From: Flavobacterium crocinum
GTDB taxonomy: Bacteria > Bacteroidota > Bacteroidia > Flavobacteriales > Flavobacteriaceae
Direction of reading: 5' to 3'
DNA length: 64,000 nucleotides
NCBI RefSeq assembly: GCF_003122385.1
Contig: NZ_CP029255.1
Location: forward strand, 1,798,001-1,862,000
The position numbers and the translations under genes are program-made. Numbering within the stretch: the first letter of the stretch is position 1; every line of letters begins with the position of its first letter. Below the pieces are notes generated by a model. The model saw only the letters and a list, made by a program, of their open reading frames with translations. It was not told where the DNA came from and ran no database searches. Of this stretch, positions 2,729-50,400 are shown piece after piece.

Positions 2729-4803
2729 AAATTGCTTTGTTTGGACCTGAAAGTACGGGGAAAACCACACTGGCAAAACAACTTGCAGATTACTATAAAA
2801 CCGAATGGGTTCCTGAGTTTGCACGTGATTATTTACAAGAAAAATGGGAAGAAAATAAGCATATCTGTGTAGCAGATGATATGATGCCTATTGCTTACGG
2901 GCAAACTGCATTAGAAAACAAAAAATTGGAAACAGCAAATAAATACTTGTTTTGTGACACCAATTTGATGGTAACCAAAGTTTTTTCTGAGATGTATTAT
3001 GGTTTTTGCGATCCGCTTTTAGATGAAGCGGCAAAAAAGCATGAGTATGATTTATTTTTTCTAACAGATATTGATGTTCCTTGGGAAAAAGATGATATTA
3101 GGGATTCTCCGGAAGGAAGAGAAACTGTCTTCTCTGTTTTTAAACAAACTTTGATTGATACCCAAAAGCCCTATATAACGCTTTCAGGAGATAAGGAATG
3201 TCGATTGAAGAAAGCGGTTTCGATTATAAATGATTTAGCTCTGGCAAAAGAAAATGATTTTTCATCAGATGATTTTGTTCAGATATATAATAGAGGAATT
3301 TCTTTTGATACTATTTTAAAACAATTAAAGAATTTTGAAAAAGGAATTGCAAAAAGCAGTCTGATAAGACCGGCAACCATTAATGACGGAATTTTGAGTC
3401 TGTCTCAAAATGAGTTTCAGGAAAAGGCATTATTTTTTGATACTCAAAAAGAGCAGTTTAAGATTAAGAAGTTTGTTCCTGCGTCTGGAGCAGCTACGAG
3501 AATGTATAAGTTTTTGACTGCATTTTTAAATGATTTTGACATCTCAAAAGAAACAATAAACGCTTATATCAATAGAAAAAATGATAAAGAACTTGCCATT
3601 TTTATTGTAGGAATGGAGAAGTTTCCTTTTTTTGAAACAGTAGATAAAAAACTAAGAGAAATTTATCCTGATTTTGAAAATTTAGAAAGAGATTATAAAA
3701 ACTACTATTTTATAAAACTGTTGCTTTCTCCGGATCATTTTAATTCGGCAAACAAACCAAAAGCAGTTTTGCCTTTTCATTTATATAAAACACATATTGC
3801 CAATCCGATTGAGGAACATTTAAATGAATGTGTGCATTATGCATCTTCAAAAAATGTATCTCATCTGCATTTTACGGTTTCCGAAATACATCAGGATTTG
3901 TTTGAAAAAGCGGTTCTTGAGGTTAAAGATAAGATTGAGAAGCCTTCAGGAATCGATATTAATATTGGATATTCATACCAAAATAAAAGCACAGATTCGA
4001 TTACTATTGATGCGAACAATAAATTGGTAAAAGACCAAAGTGGAAATTTAATTTTCAGACCCGGCGGACATGGCGCTTTAATCGAAAATTTAAATGAACT
4101 CGATGCTGATATTATTTTCATTAAAAATATCGATAACGTAATCCAGAATCATATCGAGGAAATTACATTGTATAAAAAAGCATTGGCAGGAATATTAATC
4201 GAGATGCAGCAAAAGGTTTTTTCATGTCTGCATACTATTGATCGTAATGAAATTAATGACAATTATTTAGAAGATATTCTTCTTTTTCTAAAGGAAAAGC
4301 TAAGTATTGAAATGAATGATGATTTCAATAAGTTTACTTTTGAAAACAAAATCACTAAAATAAAAGAATTGTTGGATAAGCCAATTCGTGTTTGCGGAAT
4401 GGTTAAAAATGAAGGAGAACCAGGAGGAGGGCCTTTTTGGGTAATCAATGATAAGGGAGTTTCTTCTCAGCAAATTGTTGAAACTTCTCAGGTCGATTTG
4501 ACTAATAAAAAACAGCTTGCCGTTTTGGAAGCAGCAACACATTTTAATCCGGTTGATTTAGTTTGTGCAACTAAAAATTATAAAAACGAGAAATTTAATT
4601 TGTTACGTTTTGTAGATCAAAATGCGGGATTTATAGTAGAGAAAAGTGTTGATGGTAAAACCGTAAGAAGTTACGAATTACCAGGCTTATGGAACGGATC
4701 TATGGCAAATTGGTTGACTGTTTTCGTTGCGGTTCCTTTGATCACTTTTAATCCGGTAAAAACAGTAAATGATTTACTGAAAGCGGCACATCAGCCACAA
4801 TAA
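2689..4803 (+). CDS. NadR-like riboside kinase fused to DUF4301 domain
   Basis: 704 residues. Residues 1-190 are a P-loop kinase of the NadR ribosylnicotinamide-kinase type: Walker A GPESTGKTTL, then EFARDYL and DTNLMVTKV. Residues 195-704 match DUF4301, starting at IYNRGISFDTILKQLKNFEKG. Within DUF4301, VPASGAATRM resembles the nucleotide-binding GG-x-G-TRM signature and RPGGHGALIENLNELDADI resembles the glycine-rich loop of UDP-sugar pyrophosphorylases, hinting at a nucleotidyltransferase-like fold (inference). In relatives I know the two parts as separate genes. No in-frame start codon lies at the junction, so this reads as a true fusion or a sequencing artefact. It overlaps pnuC by 40 bp. 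Confidence 0.85.
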   Translation: MEKDLRQQKTAIIKIALFGPESTGKTTLAKQLADYYKTEWVPEFARDYLQEKWEENKHICVADDMMPIAYGQTALENKKLETANKYLFCDTNLMVTKVFSEMYYGFCDPLLDEAAKKHEYDLFFLTDIDVPWEKDDIRDSPEGRETVFSVFKQTLIDTQKPYITLSGDKECRLKKAVSIINDLALAKENDFSSDDFVQIYNRGISFDTILKQLKNFEKGIAKSSLIRPATINDGILSLSQNEFQEKALFFDTQKEQFKIKKFVPASGAATRMYKFLTAFLNDFDISKETINAYINRKNDKELAIFIVGMEKFPFFETVDKKLREIYPDFENLERDYKNYYFIKLLLSPDHFNSANKPKAVLPFHLYKTHIANPIEEHLNECVHYASSKNVSHLHFTVSEIHQDLFEKAVLEVKDKIEKPSGIDINIGYSYQNKSTDSITIDANNKLVKDQSGNLIFRPGGHGALIENLNELDADIIFIKNIDNVIQNHIEEITLYKKALAGILIEMQQKVFSCLHTIDRNEINDNYLEDILLFLKEKLSIEMNDDFNKFTFENKITKIKELLDKPIRVCGMVKNEGEPGGGPFWVINDKGVSSQQIVETSQVDLTNKKQLAVLEAATHFNPVDLVCATKNYKNEKFNLLRFVDQNAGFIVEKSVDGKTVRSYELPGLWNGSMANWLTVFVAVPLITFNPVKTVNDLLKAAHQPQ

Positions 4804-9077: not shown

Positions 9078-9803
9078 ATGAAAAAATTAACATTATTATT
9101 TTTTTGCCTTTTTTTTAATGTATCGTTTTCTCAAATAAAAAATGGGTCTGTTGTTTATAGTGTTACACCGGTAGAAACTGAAAGTAATCTAGATAAAATG
9201 TCTCAAGGTATAGCTCCCGGATTAATGGACAGAGTAAAAGAACTCGATTTTAATCTAATTTTTGATTCCTATAATGCGTACTTTGATATTAATAAAAAGT
9301 ACAAATATGATAAATCTAATGAAACAGTATTTGCTAAACTAAAAATAGAGTTTAGTGGAGAAATTTGGCAGACAAAGGATAGTGTTTACAGTGATGTAAA
9401 CTTAGGATACCTAGGAAATAATCTAATTCTAAAAAAAGAAACAGAGAAGAATTGGATTTTGCATAATGAAACAAAAAAAATAGACAGATTTGTTTGCTAT
9501 AAAGCTACTACAGAAATAGTAAGAGTTGCACCGCAAAAAACATTTAGATTTCCAATTACAGCATGGTATTGTCCTGAAATAAATGTTCCTTTTGGACCTG
9601 CAGGATTTGGTAATCTGCCAGGGCTTATTTTGGAGCTTCAAACAAAAGACGCAGTATTTGGAGTAAAAACAATCTCAATAAATCCAGAAGAAAAGATTGA
9701 AGTACCCAAATTGAAAAAAGGTAAAATACTTTCCGAAAAAGAGCTGGATGGAATTATTACAAGGTATAATGATGAGAAGAATTCTAATAATTCAAAAAGA
9801 TGA
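9078..9803 (+). CDS. GLPGLI family protein (copy 2)
   Basis: 241 residues from the ATG at 9078, chosen because it begins a clean signal peptide (MKKLTLLFFCLFFNVSFSQ); an upstream in-frame ATG at 8994 lies inside copy 1. Conserved blocks: NWILHNETKKIDRFVCYKA, AWYCPEINVPFGPAGF and GNLPGLILEL. The stop overlaps the start of copy 3 (ATGA), so the copies are translationally linked. Closest in motif spelling to copy 3, suggesting a recent duplication. Confidence 0.88.
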   Translation: MKKLTLLFFCLFFNVSFSQIKNGSVVYSVTPVETESNLDKMSQGIAPGLMDRVKELDFNLIFDSYNAYFDINKKYKYDKSNETVFAKLKIEFSGEIWQTKDSVYSDVNLGYLGNNLILKKETEKNWILHNETKKIDRFVCYKATTEIVRVAPQKTFRFPITAWYCPEINVPFGPAGFGNLPGLILELQTKDAVFGVKTISINPEEKIEVPKLKKGKILSEKELDGIITRYNDEKNSNNSKR

Positions 9804-10510
9804 AATATTGCAGAAAATTATTTTTTTTAGTTCTGTTTTTGTCATTCACAGCTAATGCGCAAAGTAAAAAGATTACTGTTGACTATAGTGCAAGGATTGA
9901 GAAAGAAGAGGGATTATTTGGGAATAATGTATTATACAAAAATCTTCTTGATAAAGCTATGGCTGATTGTTATAAAATAACATTTCAATTGATTATAACA
10001 GAGAATGGAGCTAAATTTTTTAATAAAGAAAATTTAGAGAGTGATATTAATAGAGGCGTAAATGGATTTGCTCTTGGGATGTTACATTATGGAGGAATTG
10101 TTTATAGCTTAAAGGATAAGGTTTTAGAACAGCATTCACAGTTAGGAGAAAATGTTTATACATCGCAAGATTTAAAAACAGACTGGGCTTTAACTAACGA
10201 AACCAAACTAATAGATAATTATTTGTGCTATAAAGCAACCAATATTTACAAGGTTGAATATGGTGCAAAAGTTTTTAATCATCCTGTTACGGCTTGGTAT
10301 TGTCCTGCATTGCCCTATTCTTATGGGCCAATAGGCTATGGGAATTTGCCAGGATTAATTTTGGAGCTTCAGGTAAGAAATGCCGTTTTTGGTGTAAAAA
10401 ATATCAACCTTCAAAGTGAACAGGATTTTGATATTAAAGTATTAAACAAAATAAAAATTTTAAGTAGAAAAGAAATGGAAGAAGCTTTTGATAAGTTAAA
10501 TGGTCTTTGA
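9800..10510 (+). CDS. GLPGLI family protein (copy 3)
   Basis: 236 residues with signal peptide MKYCRKLFFLVLFLSFTANAQ. Conserved blocks: DWALTNETKLIDNYLCYKA, AWYCPALPYSYGPIGY and GNLPGLILEL. It starts within the stop codon of copy 2. Function is unknown; the exported location and the downstream beta-barrel protein suggest that the group works at the outer membrane (inference). Confidence 0.88.
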   Translation: MKYCRKLFFLVLFLSFTANAQSKKITVDYSARIEKEEGLFGNNVLYKNLLDKAMADCYKITFQLIITENGAKFFNKENLESDINRGVNGFALGMLHYGGIVYSLKDKVLEQHSQLGENVYTSQDLKTDWALTNETKLIDNYLCYKATNIYKVEYGAKVFNHPVTAWYCPALPYSYGPIGYGNLPGLILELQVRNAVFGVKNINLQSEQDFDIKVLNKIKILSRKEMEEAFDKLNGL

Positions 10511-20381: not shown

Positions 20382-21494
20382 TTAAGCAAAACTCTTATCC
20401 CAATCTTTCCAAACTGGTTCGTAGCCTTTGTTTTTTATGATTTTTGAAATTTCTTCTGCCGAACGTTCATCACTGATTTCGAATTGTTCCAAAGACTGAG
20501 GATCTACCACATAACCACCCGGATTTGTCTTAGATCCAGCACTCATATTGGTCACGCCAATTGGAATAATATTGTTTCTGAATTTCTCGTTTTCTCTTGT
20601 TGAAATCGATATTTCCAGGTCCTCATTCCATAATCTGTAAGCACAGATTAATTGCGTCAAATCTTTATCGTCCATAATAAAATTAGGTTCGATAATTCCC
20701 TCGGCAGGTCGCAGACGAGGAAACGAAACCGAATATTTGGTCTGCCAATATTTCTTTTGAAGATAATCTAAATGCAAAGCGTTAAAAAAACTGTCCGTTC
20801 GCCAATCTTCCAAACCTAATAAAACGCCTAAACCAATTTTGTGAATTCCTGCAGTTCCAATTCTGTCTGGAGTTTCTAATCTATAATCAAAATTTGATTT
20901 TTTGCCTTTTGTGTGATATTTTTTGTAAACTTCCTGATGATACGTTTCCTGATAAACTAAAACAGAGTAAACTCCAGCATCATGCAAACGCTGATAATCT
21001 TCTGTAGAAAGGGGCTGGACTTCAACAGAAATAATCGAAAAATCATTTTTAATCTGTTTTATGGCATTCAGAAAATAATTGATATTTACAGTATAATTTG
21101 CTTCGCCAGTCACTAATAAAACATGATCAAAACCTGTATTTTTTAACGCTTCAACTTCGAGTTTTATTTCGCCATCAGTCAGTGTTTTGCGTTTGATTTT
21201 ATTGTCGAGACTGAATCCACAATAGGTGCAAATGTTTTGACATTCGTTGCTTAAATATAATGGAGCATACATTTGGATTGTTTTCCCAAAACGTTTCTTG
21301 GTAATTTCATGGCATTTCTGTGCCATTTCTTCCAGATAATTTTGTGCAATAGGAGAAATCAGAATCAAAAAATCATCGAGATTGAGTTTGGTTTTCGCCA
21401 AAGTTCGTTCGACATCTTTTGATGTGGTTTGGTATATTCGGGATTGAATATCATCCCAATTATATTGCTCAAAAATAGATTTGAATGTTTTCAT
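20382..21494 (-). CDS. thiH: 2-iminoacetate synthase ThiH (radical SAM)
   Basis: 370 residues. Radical-SAM cluster motif CQNICTYCGFS (CxxxCxxC) near 85, followed by the (beta/alpha) barrel and C-terminal NMSAGSKTNPGGY. It cleaves tyrosine to dehydroglycine, the glycine-imine donor for thiazole formation by ThiG. The oxygen-sensitive ThiH, rather than ThiO, is used. An inserted GxxExxY cassette separates it from thiG. Confidence 0.96.
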   Translation of the reverse strand: MKTFKSIFEQYNWDDIQSRIYQTTSKDVERTLAKTKLNLDDFLILISPIAQNYLEEMAQKCHEITKKRFGKTIQMYAPLYLSNECQNICTYCGFSLDNKIKRKTLTDGEIKLEVEALKNTGFDHVLLVTGEANYTVNINYFLNAIKQIKNDFSIISVEVQPLSTEDYQRLHDAGVYSVLVYQETYHQEVYKKYHTKGKKSNFDYRLETPDRIGTAGIHKIGLGVLLGLEDWRTDSFFNALHLDYLQKKYWQTKYSVSFPRLRPAEGIIEPNFIMDDKDLTQLICAYRLWNEDLEISISTRENEKFRNNIIPIGVTNMSAGSKTNPGGYVVDPQSLEQFEISDERSAEEISKIIKNKGYEPVWKDWDKSFA

Positions 21495-21508
21495 TTTTTA
21501 TTTTGTTT

Positions 21509-21537
21509 CCCGCAGATTTTGCAGATCGTGCAGATTA
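21509..21537. repeat. Left GCAGAT array of the GxxExxY cassette
   Basis: Three GCAGAT hexamers at 21512, 21521 and 21530, exactly 9 bp apart. The last overlaps the stop codon of the GxxExxY gene. Mirror image of the array at 22009-22032. Confidence 0.9.
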
Positions 21538-21912
21538 AATTTTATTAGCAACACGATGAATATTTTCAAGGATATTAGCACAGTTGAAATTGACTAATAA
21601 TCCAAGTTTTTTATTCGTCAATTTTAAATAAGTATTTAGCTGTTTAAAATGTATAGGTTTTATTTCGTCCACTGATTTTAATTCTATAATTACTTTATCC
21701 TCAACTAAAATATCTAGCCTAAAAGTTATGTCTAAATAGACATCATCATATTTAACTGGTAAATCAATTTGTTTAACTACTTGTAATCCATATTTTTCCA
21801 ATTGATAGTAAAGTGCACTCTCATATACCGATTCTAATAATCCTGGCCCAAGAGTGTTATATACTTTAAAAATTGCTCCTCTAACTTTATATGAAATCTC
21901 ATTTTCAGACAT
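21535..21912 (-). CDS. GxxExxY protein (putative PD-(D/E)XK-type nuclease fold)
   Basis: 125 residues. The name motif is GPGLLESVYE (G-x-x-E-x-x-Y) near 22-31. A nuclease-like D...E-x-K pattern follows: FRLDILVEDKVIIELKS near 64-80, matching the catalytic spacing of the PD-(D/E)XK superfamily. No function is established. It interrupts the thiG-thiH junction and is unrelated to thiamine synthesis. Three GCAGAT hexamers at its 3' end and three ATCTGC hexamers upstream of its 5' end, each with a 9-bp period, form inverted boundaries, suggesting a mobile or dispersed cassette. Confidence 0.9.
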   Translation of the reverse strand: MSENEISYKVRGAIFKVYNTLGPGLLESVYESALYYQLEKYGLQVVKQIDLPVKYDDVYLDITFRLDILVEDKVIIELKSVDEIKPIHFKQLNTYLKLTNKKLGLLVNFNCANILENIHRVANKI

Positions 21913-22008
21913 ATTTTTTTAATTTAAAAATAAGGAAAAATCCTTCTTTTTTTAAGACTTGGTTAAAAAATCATAATAATATAGATTTAGTAGTCTCAAC
22001 ATAAAATT

Positions 22009-22037
22009 ATCTGCCAAATCTGCGAGATCTGCGAGAG
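22009..22037. repeat. Right ATCTGC array of the GxxExxY cassette
   Basis: Three ATCTGC hexamers at 22009, 22018 and 22027, exactly 9 bp apart, 10 bp from the thiG stop. Inverted relative to the array at 21512-21535. Confidence 0.9.
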
Positions 22038-22046
22038 AAAATCAAT

Positions 22047-22823
22047 TTACTGATAAAGGAAAGACGTCAAAGGACTAGAAGCGACAGCAAAGTTTTGCTG
22101 ATTGGCAACTTTAGCTTCAAAAGCTTTTCTTCCTGCTATAACAGCTTCTTTGAATGCTTCAGCCATTAATTTTGGATTTCCGGCAACCGCAATTGCAGTA
22201 TTAACCAAAACAGCATCGGCACCAATTTCCATTGCTTTTGCAGCATCAGATGGCGCGCCAATTCCAGCGTCGACAATTACAGGGACATTGCTTTGTTCAA
22301 TTATTATTTCTAAGAAATCTATCGTTTTTAAACCTTTATTGCTTCCAATAGGCGAACCCAAAGGCATTACTGCTGAAGTTCCAACATTCTCTAGATGTTT
22401 GCATAAAACAGGATCAGCATGAATATAAGGCAAAACAATGAAACCTAATTTGGCCAATTCTTCAGTGGCTTTTAACGTTTCAAGAGGATCCGGCATTAAA
22501 TATTTTGGGTCGGGATGAATTTCTAATTTAACCCAGTTTGTTTCTAGAGCTTCACGAGCCAATTGCGCGGCAAAAACGGCTTCTTTCGCATTTCTTGCAC
22601 CAGAAGTATTCGGTAATAAATTAATATTTGGATGCTTTAAATGTGATAAAATAGCATCAGTATCGGTTTCTAAATCAATTCGTTTTAGTGCAACAGTAAC
22701 CAATTCGCTTTCTGAGGCTAAAATGGCGCTTTCCATTTCTTCATTCGATCCAAATTTTCCAGTTCCTAAAAACAATCTGGATTTGAAGCTCTTATCTTCA
22801 ATATTAAACAATGACTTTTGCAT
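22047..22823 (-). CDS. thiG: Thiazole synthase ThiG
   Basis: 258 residues, TIM barrel. Motifs: [11 protein letters not shown], the Schiff-base lysine region [48 protein letters not shown] and [14 protein letters not shown]. It condenses deoxyxylulose phosphate, dehydroglycine and ThiS thiocarboxylate to the thiazole phosphate. Its start overlaps the end of thiE by 20 bp. Confidence 0.97.
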
Positions 22824-26946: not shown

Positions 26947-27023
26947 TCCTTTCGAGTTTAGTGTATAGTTATACACAATAGGAATGGCTGCAATAACGCA
27001 CAGAAATGCGTTTAAGAAGTCAT

Positions 27024-27106
27024 CTTACTTTTCCCTACGCTAGTATGAACTAGATCAGGTTCAGAGGGTAAAATCTCAGCCTGCGTGATGCAGACACCCC
27101 TAAAGT
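27024..27106 (-). promoter_or_regulatory. TPP riboswitch of the thi operon
   Basis: On the minus strand: TAGGGGTGTCTGC (near 27102-27090), GCAGGCTGAGATTTTACCC (27085-27067), CTGAACCTGATCTAGTTCAT (27064-27045) and GCGTAGGGAAAAGTA (27040-27026). All THI-box blocks are present. It should repress thiS-C-E2-D-E-G-H-F when TPP is plentiful. Confidence 0.96.
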
Positions 27107-27112
27107 GTGAAG

Positions 27113-50322: not shown

Positions 50323-50400
50323 TAACGCAATGGGCGCTGAGGTATACGCAAAAAGTGCGCTAAGTTTTTTTAGGATGCAAAGCTCGCAAAGCTTTGTCTG
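50323..50400. repeat. Degenerate ACGCAA/GCGCTAAG repeat
   Basis: AACGCAATGGGCGCTGAGGT is followed by ACGCAAAAAGTGCGCTAAG, two degenerate copies, then GCAAAGCTCGCAAAGC. It lies in the gap between the tRNA pair and the AraC gene. No gene is seen here. Confidence 0.6.

Follow-up and report, generated by a model that had tools for sequence, protein, structure and literature searches.

We analysed a stretch of 64,000 nucleotides from Flavobacterium crocinum (contig NZ_CP029255.1, positions 1,798,001 to 1,862,000; hereafter the window), whose genome is a single contig of 5.88 Mb. Between the thiamine genes thiG and thiH lies a gene of the GxxExxY family, bracketed by two short tandem arrays of the hexamer GCAGAT in opposite orientation. 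The bracketed unit exemplifies a broader pattern among GxxExxY genes: the arrangement recurs, the repeated unit differs between paralogs, gene-less copies of several array families are dispersed through the genome, and the content of the thiG-thiH junction alternates among species. The locus is laid out as follows, in window coordinates.

20382..21494, minus strand: thiH (TIGR02351), downstream neighbour of the GxxExxY gene, on the same strand
21512..21535, plus strand: 3'-side array, GCAGAT three times with a 9-bp period, reading ATCTGC in the gene direction
21535..21912, minus strand: GxxExxY gene, 125 aa (PF13366, TIGR04256)
22009..22032, minus strand: 5'-side array, ATCTGC three times on the plus strand with a 9-bp period, reading GCAGAT in the gene direction
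22047..22823, minus strand: thiG (PF05690), upstream neighbour of the GxxExxY gene, on the same strand
21500..22040, minus strand: the whole unit as folded, with the arrays paired and the gene inside; outer ends approximate

The encoded protein scores 138 bits against PF13366 (cut-off 22) and 140.1 bits against TIGR04256 (cut-off 35), and its residues D67, E77-x-K79 and Q91 are invariant across 35 aligned relatives. It combines the fold and the D...ExK residues by which PD-(D/E)XK nucleases are recognized, and on sequence grounds we class it as a nuclease-like member of the GxxExxY family, in agreement with a preliminary description of the locus made from the DNA alone. A sequence search of the PDB gave no match up to an E-value of 1, Foldseek gave none at 0.001 (best, 1.4e-3), and a domain search up to an E-value of 1 returned PF13366 alone, with no Pfam01797 (Transposase_17). 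None of 50,697 phage records matched the protein at 1e-6. Its best PHROGs match was phrog_1706 (“CRISPR/Cas system associated,” 1e-5), and PADLOC reported weak, partial-length matches to models of PDC-S02, PDC-M36A, Cas4, and JetA (best, 1.2e-5). A thiamine pyrophosphate (TPP) riboswitch (RF00059, 74 bits) lies 5' of thiC at 27015-27111 on the minus strand, and it may control the bracketed gene as well, provided that the operon is one transcript.

The arrays form inverted triplets, with GCAGAT at 21512, 21521, and 21530 and ATCTGC at 22009, 22018, and 22027. When up to three mismatches are allowed, the pattern GCAGATN3GCAGATN3GCAGAT occurs at exactly two places in the window, both without a mismatch, against an expectation of 0.05; none of 100 shuffles reached two places, which rules out a chance origin and bears out the mirror-image brackets with an exact 9-bp period that had been described. 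The window arms are the arrays GCAGATNNN, and GTAG is not among their letters. The arms close the predicted RNA fold, both in the window (z -4.76) and at a second locus, L084 (z -5.46). They are conserved within one allele class (20 rows), whose proteins share ∼69% identity with that of the window; here the mean column identity of the two arms is 0.94 and 0.96, compared with 0.75 and 0.67 for the DNA between arm and gene and 0.75 for third codon positions. In the window's own allele class (26 rows) the contrast is weaker (left arm 0.90 and right arm 0.80, vs. 0.77). Covariation of the arms in the ∼69% class is slight (term 0.08; two-sided change in 8 of 60 predicted pairs), and we therefore make no claim of covariation.

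A scan of species genomes with the window protein gave 251 relatives, and the 80 highest-ranking were taken as loci. Flanks were displayed for 29 of 89 GxxExxY loci; arrays were visible at many of them, with hints that this genome's other eight paralogs have their own, differing arrays. In a pairing test, the 200 bp preceding each gene were aligned to the reverse-complemented 200 bp that follow the gene, and a locus was passed if at most 2 of 200 dinucleotide shuffles did as well. By this measure, 7 of the 9 GxxExxY genes of the genome passed, as did 57 of 88 loci in a phylum sample, 45 of these at 0/200. Controls passed rarely: 2 of 61 genes, 3 of 334 in a larger set made up of the own-genome sample plus the window (two at 0/200, and the strongest of the three flanked by two complete hairpins), and 1 of 122 when at least 60 bp were free on both sides. 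The phylum search found a match in 60 of 118 genomes, and the sample comprised 30 loci returned by this search plus 60 further places in table order. Own places, two places near contig ends, and one next to a fetched place were excluded, and L130, which lies at a contig end, and L219, whose flank was too short, were also dropped, giving 88; because places were taken in order down the match table, the sample leans to high-scoring members. The preliminary description had proposed to look for GCAGAT-type arrays with a 9-bp period around other GxxExxY genes. The enrichment is there (57/88 vs. 3/334), but the units are mostly others, so that a GCAGAT-type search would have missed eight of the nine own-genome paralogs; likewise, the 9-bp period holds for the window but not family-wide, where the best period is broad, lying mainly between 8 and 12, and 9 and 10 are the most frequent values (27 of 62 loci; mean z 0.98 and 0.92).

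The class of the repeated unit follows the GxxExxY protein tree. When arms were ranked, the cognate arm came first for seven of the nine own paralogs. In the phylum sample it came first in 29 of 88 cases and within the top 5% in 55 of 88, with a median rank of 2.5 compared with 44.5 expected. With loci sorted into nine hand-chosen unit classes, 52 of 53 thi loci fell into the GCAGAT/ACAGAT class. Among 35 non-thi loci with at least 55% identity to the window protein, this class accounted for 23 and CTGAT for 4, with 3 loci having none, and among 43 loci at 45%-55% identity CAAAG led with 19, with CAGAG at 9 and GCAGAT at 5. On a tree of 129 proteins, unit class required 37 changes, compared with 63.0 after shuffling, and none of 200 shuffles was as low; 20 proteins without a unit class are left uncounted in this figure, and near copies ease such clustering.

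Gene and arrays are arranged in more than one layout: the gene may lie within one inverted pair, or the arrangement may be another, for example with a complete hairpin next to the gene or one at each end of it. At six of nine own loci and 36 of 88 in the phylum sample, the flanks pass the test by pairing across the gene, and this pairing beats both the direct match and any pairing within a flank; a direct flank match also passes, at one of nine and 31 of 88, respectively. Both neighbours are co-directional with the gene at eight of nine own and 60 of 81 phylum loci (7 incomplete loci excluded); the corresponding figures are 27 of 51 for the genes of the window and 208 of 334 for the larger own-genome control. 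Plasmid searches with the GxxExxY protein gave eight distinct matching records, of which five were examined. Arrays stand on both sides of the gene in a Sphingomonas plasmid (between fabD and fabG), a Bernardetia plasmid (between ade and a mannose-1-phosphate guanylyltransferase gene), and a Bacteroides plasmid (between radA and the gene of a flavin adenine dinucleotide [FAD] protein), and the Gemmatirosa plasmid copy, for which the match fell into two pieces, lies between two complete hairpins. On the Fusobacteria plasmid L335 (gene at 1501-1875), the flanks share a direct, not an inverted, repeat, CAGATTTAATCCGTGTACC. Separately, at L338 a PepSY-like gene lies between complete hairpins at 9580-9665 (CCACAGATTAAAAGGATT...) and 10213-10293 (CCACAGATTAAAGGATT...).

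The thiG-thiH junction was surveyed in 109 rows with 95 distinct thiG sequences, some species being present twice and some rows having been found via the window protein. The gene was present in 71 rows, a gene-less hairpin of another family in 20, and neither in 18; the 58 rows found by thiG alone divide into 20 with the gene, 20 with the gene-less hairpin, and 18 bare. Junction states thus alternate among species, so that an accessory gene, which the preliminary description had considered unexpected here, is not rare, and relatives whose junction lacks the gene, for which it had proposed to look, do exist. The gene-less hairpin is built from another unit type (e.g., TTAACCGCAAAG...CTTTGCGGTTAA) and by eye looks like the arms of paralog L001; L183 and L193 were scored as bare by rule, yet have array-like sequence. 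Downstream of thiH, L075 carries an inverted array of another type at 4604-4690 (AAAGTCGAAAGTTATAAGTC...), and L077 carries different DNA. In-frame stops interrupt the GxxExxY frames at L086, G172, and G224, which judging by these frames are probably decaying copies.

Alleles ∼69% and at least 80% identical to the window protein occupy the same junction with the same hexamers, and strains of the same species name can differ in identity to the window protein at this site (93% vs. 68% for L045 and L085; 86% vs. 68% for L056 and L086). On the thiG tree the gene label changes 17 times, with 9 changes forced by well-supported branches, and the hairpin label shows hardly any clustering (16 changes vs. 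18.6 shuffled). One explanation is a recombination cassette, in which the arms are exchange points that swap junction content between strains, by homologous or array-guided exchange, with the nuclease as cutter. The repeated changes of the gene label, the two allele groups sharing hexamers, and an outer right end that looks alike in one cross-class pair (L054 vs. L091) are all in its favor. However, the thiG and thiH flanks would be enough for ordinary homologous exchange, and the gene-less hairpin of the junction belongs to another unit family, and we regard this explanation as very unlikely.

Beyond the junction, GCAGATN3GCAGAT occurs 121 times in the whole genome, and the reversed control pattern does not occur at all. 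Of 15 displayed places, most are intergenic and many have inverted partners; one (L031) lies within an open reading frame (ORF). Between the arms of gene-less pairs, spacers match in 10 of 21 cases, compared with 4.7 after shuffling (p 0.005; 100 of the 121 places listed). Copies of each array family were counted in a 464-kb sample consisting of 20 evenly spaced 20-kb stretches plus the window, with each family's own unit masked and 87% of the sample coding by an ORF rule. Loosely cut arms gave a clear excess for the window family alone (14 vs. 0) and almost no excess for the majority of the other families, probably owing to AT-rich tails left on the arms, and the counts were redone with hand-cut cores. 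The window family then has nine places compared with 0.17 for shuffled cores, eight of them intergenic; the families of paralogs L009, L008, and L001 have 12 (vs. 0.67, shuffles up to 4), 6 (vs. 0.08), and 4 (vs. 0.17), and those of L003-L007 have two to five (vs. 0-0.75). One gene-less array of the L001 type lies in the window itself, at ∼50326-50353, just past what by eye are a tRNA-like stretch and a terminator-like hairpin.

Across 58 genomes of known thi state, the median number of GCAGAT pairs was 95.5 in those with the gene (n = 20), 26 in those with the hairpin (n = 20), and 0 in those with a bare junction (n = 18). Among genomes of at least 5 Mb the medians were 112.5 with the gene and 52 without (p 0.0024, kinship not corrected). 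The gene itself showed no movement: the L001-type gene is syntenic in all seven loci with at least 74% identity to L001 (11 compared). The unit had initially been described as mobile or dispersed, and dispersal holds for gene-less copies (the 121 pairs); for the gene no movement was observed, L001 being syntenic and the thi unit being present or absent at one junction.

A second protein family shows the same layout. S23 (PF05635, the 23S rRNA intervening sequence [IVS] protein) has six genes in this genome (L120-L125), and 29 phylum loci (L274-L302) were taken from a search with a match in 61 of 80 genomes. All six own genes and 14 of the 29 phylum loci passed the pairing test at the same threshold, pairing across the gene was best in six of six and 12 of 29, and both neighbours were co-directional in six of six and 21 of 26 (3 incomplete loci excluded). 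S23 arms favor a period of 7 (mean z 3.8), which comes out best in 14 of the 20 loci that passed. Four S23 families are dispersed in the 464-kb sample (L124, 5 places vs. 0; L125, 7 vs. 0.33; L121, 5 vs. 0.33; L123, 4 vs. 0.33), and those of L120 and L122 have no dispersed copies there. That the array period differs by protein family points to the protein, or a structure that the protein needs, as the reader of the array.

S23 proteins are encoded within rRNA IVS stem-loops (PMC4990558), and S23 genes are bracketed here too, which brings in a reading at the RNA level. The unit would be an element like a 23S rRNA IVS, whose arms pair in the operon mRNA to form a stem that is processed or protective, perhaps with the protein, and whose spread is rare and incidental. 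The predicted fold closed by the arms, the mostly co-directional neighbours around GxxExxY and S23 genes, and the matching spacers of gene-less pairs are as this reading would have them. It leaves unexplained, however, the tandem units and their differences between paralogs, as well as the family-specific period (9-10 vs. 7), and gene-less copies are found away from the gene. Moreover, the co-directional excess is modest (74% in the phylum sample vs. 62% in the own-genome control, an informal comparison between different genomes), and covariation in the arm alignment is slight. We consider an RNA-level element somewhat unlikely.

We lean, by a narrow margin of confidence, toward the explanation that the GxxExxY protein acts on its own arrays and helps them to spread. 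In this scheme the arrays on either side of the gene consist of the unit proper to its lineage, and in this genome they mostly form two inverted arms that enclose the gene in a loop. The units would most likely be bound by the protein, as duplex or as folded single strand, and nicked or cut by it, and this activity would occasionally allow gene-less hairpins built from these units to be copied to other places between genes. The gene itself would mostly be inherited at fixed sites, often in operons and along the direction of transcription. What we infer is that the protein recognizes its arms, that it cleaves, and that it drives dispersal. More tentatively, and with doubt outweighing confidence, a class of protein-hairpin systems can be proposed, in which at least two unrelated families (GxxExxY proteins with a PD-(D/E)XK fold and S23 four-helix bundles) lie within or between their own array hairpins and read and propagate them, the period is set by the family (9-10 vs. 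7 bp), the unit evolves with the protein, and many of the short tandem-array hairpins between Bacteroidota genes are the result.

Several observations weigh against spread by the GxxExxY protein. The window unit itself fails the pairing test (15 of 200 shuffles reach its score) because its hexamers pair and its spacers do not, and its case therefore rests on the hexamers; in all, 31 of 88 phylum and two of nine own loci, the window's included, miss this test. The L003, L005, and L006 families have only two or three places in the 464-kb sample, and for L004 (three places) and L007 (five) a shuffled core reached four. On the tree of 129 proteins, the labels CTGAT and CGAAT show no clustering. 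An independent-pairs test of gene presence against array number gave 3.6 pairs for and 0.1 against, which is not significant (median p 0.125), and sister genomes without the gene retain GCAGAT arrays, up to 114, which fits decay after loss or some other upkeep. RNA structure alone could be the reason for keeping the arms. Finally, 122 close pairs of thi loci gave five candidate insertion boundaries, none of them clean, and revealed neither a mobility event nor a target-site duplication nor a boundary of the unit.

Layout adds to these points. The direct flank match equals or exceeds the inverted one in 20 of 57 passing phylum loci. Of 29 related loci outside thi, 24 match better in the direct orientation, and at several of these that were displayed, complete hairpins flank the gene on one side or on both. 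The picture of a gene in a loop is therefore restricted to this genome and part of the phylum sample, and the inverted bracket with the gene inside, as initially described, is right for the window but cannot be extended to every GxxExxY gene. The same observations would suit hairpins that the host maintains as regulatory elements at gene junctions, among which the GxxExxY gene is a chance passenger, as would the gene-less hairpins at thiG-thiH (20 of 109 rows) and beside ordinary genes. Set against a passenger gene are the across-gene pairing at 6/9 own and 36/88 phylum loci, the agreement of unit class with the protein tree, and the rate of 3/334 among ordinary genes, the strongest of which lies between two complete hairpins; we judge it improbable.

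If the protein does act on its arrays, a role is suggested for a common family (at least 7998 relatives) for which we found no role described in the sources consulted in part, and a source can be named for array hairpins between genes. Pairs of protein and site would also be at hand in nature, with a short DNA unit and a nuclease-like protein of 125 residues changing together. Should REPIN-like dispersal have arisen with an unrelated fold, its logic would be a general evolutionary outcome that can be tested in a second system.

Among known systems, the GxxExxY family (TIGR04256, PF13366 PDDEXK_3) is the one of which the window gene is a member. The portions of the GxxExxY/PF13366 literature available to us, PMC8934634 included, do not mention flanking repeats, and among the open-licence literature matches listed, as far as their text could be seen, none pairs GxxExxY/PDDEXK or S23 genes with repeat arrays. 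The PD-(D/E)XK nucleases SSO0001 (4ic1, Cas4-like) and Hjc (1gef) count among the closest known systems. Like the window unit, the 23S rRNA IVS with its S23 protein has a small ORF in a loop that inverted terminal repeats close, and this ORF is oriented with the host transcript. An IVS is excised by RNase III; for the window unit a stem is predicted. The two differ in that the proteins are unrelated, the arms here are tandem arrays, and the window unit is inserted not in an rRNA helix but between two protein genes, thiG and thiH.

The closest likeness in logic is to repetitive extragenic palindromic (REP) sequences, their REPIN hairpins, and the REP-associated transposases (RAYTs). In the portions of the cited work consulted (PMC2817692, PMC8049555), RAYT genes are flanked by two inverted REPs, RAYT orthologs keep their place while REPs change yet remain palindromic, and RAYT-bearing genomes have more REPINs; a REP is described, likewise from partial sources, as a palindrome of 20-40 bp, often with a GTAG or CGTC tag that is not universal. 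GxxExxY genes are similarly flanked by repeat copies, often inverted, that are also dispersed as extragenic hairpins. The window gene lies between two inverted repeats, and extragenic dispersal is evident for its family and weak for L003-L007. The repeat follows the protein lineage, and the excess of array copies where the gene is kept is suggestive only. As for vertical inheritance of the RAYT kind, the L001 ortholog group stays put, syntenic in seven loci, and the thi unit undergoes at least 17 changes of its presence/absence label. The differences are that GxxExxY ends are arrays of a tandem unit of ∼9-10 bp rather than one short palindrome (the window arms are not tagged palindromes of 20-40 bp), that several paralogs with differing arrays occur per genome, and that the protein is PD-(D/E)XK rather than HUH/Y1 (Pfam01797 Transposase_17). 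By its fold, therefore, the GxxExxY protein is no RAYT, despite REPIN-RAYT-like logic; the likeness to REP-associated transposases with a different protein, as first suggested for this locus, is supported at that level, and the RAYT/REPIN division of labor may have been arrived at here with an unrelated PD-(D/E)XK fold.
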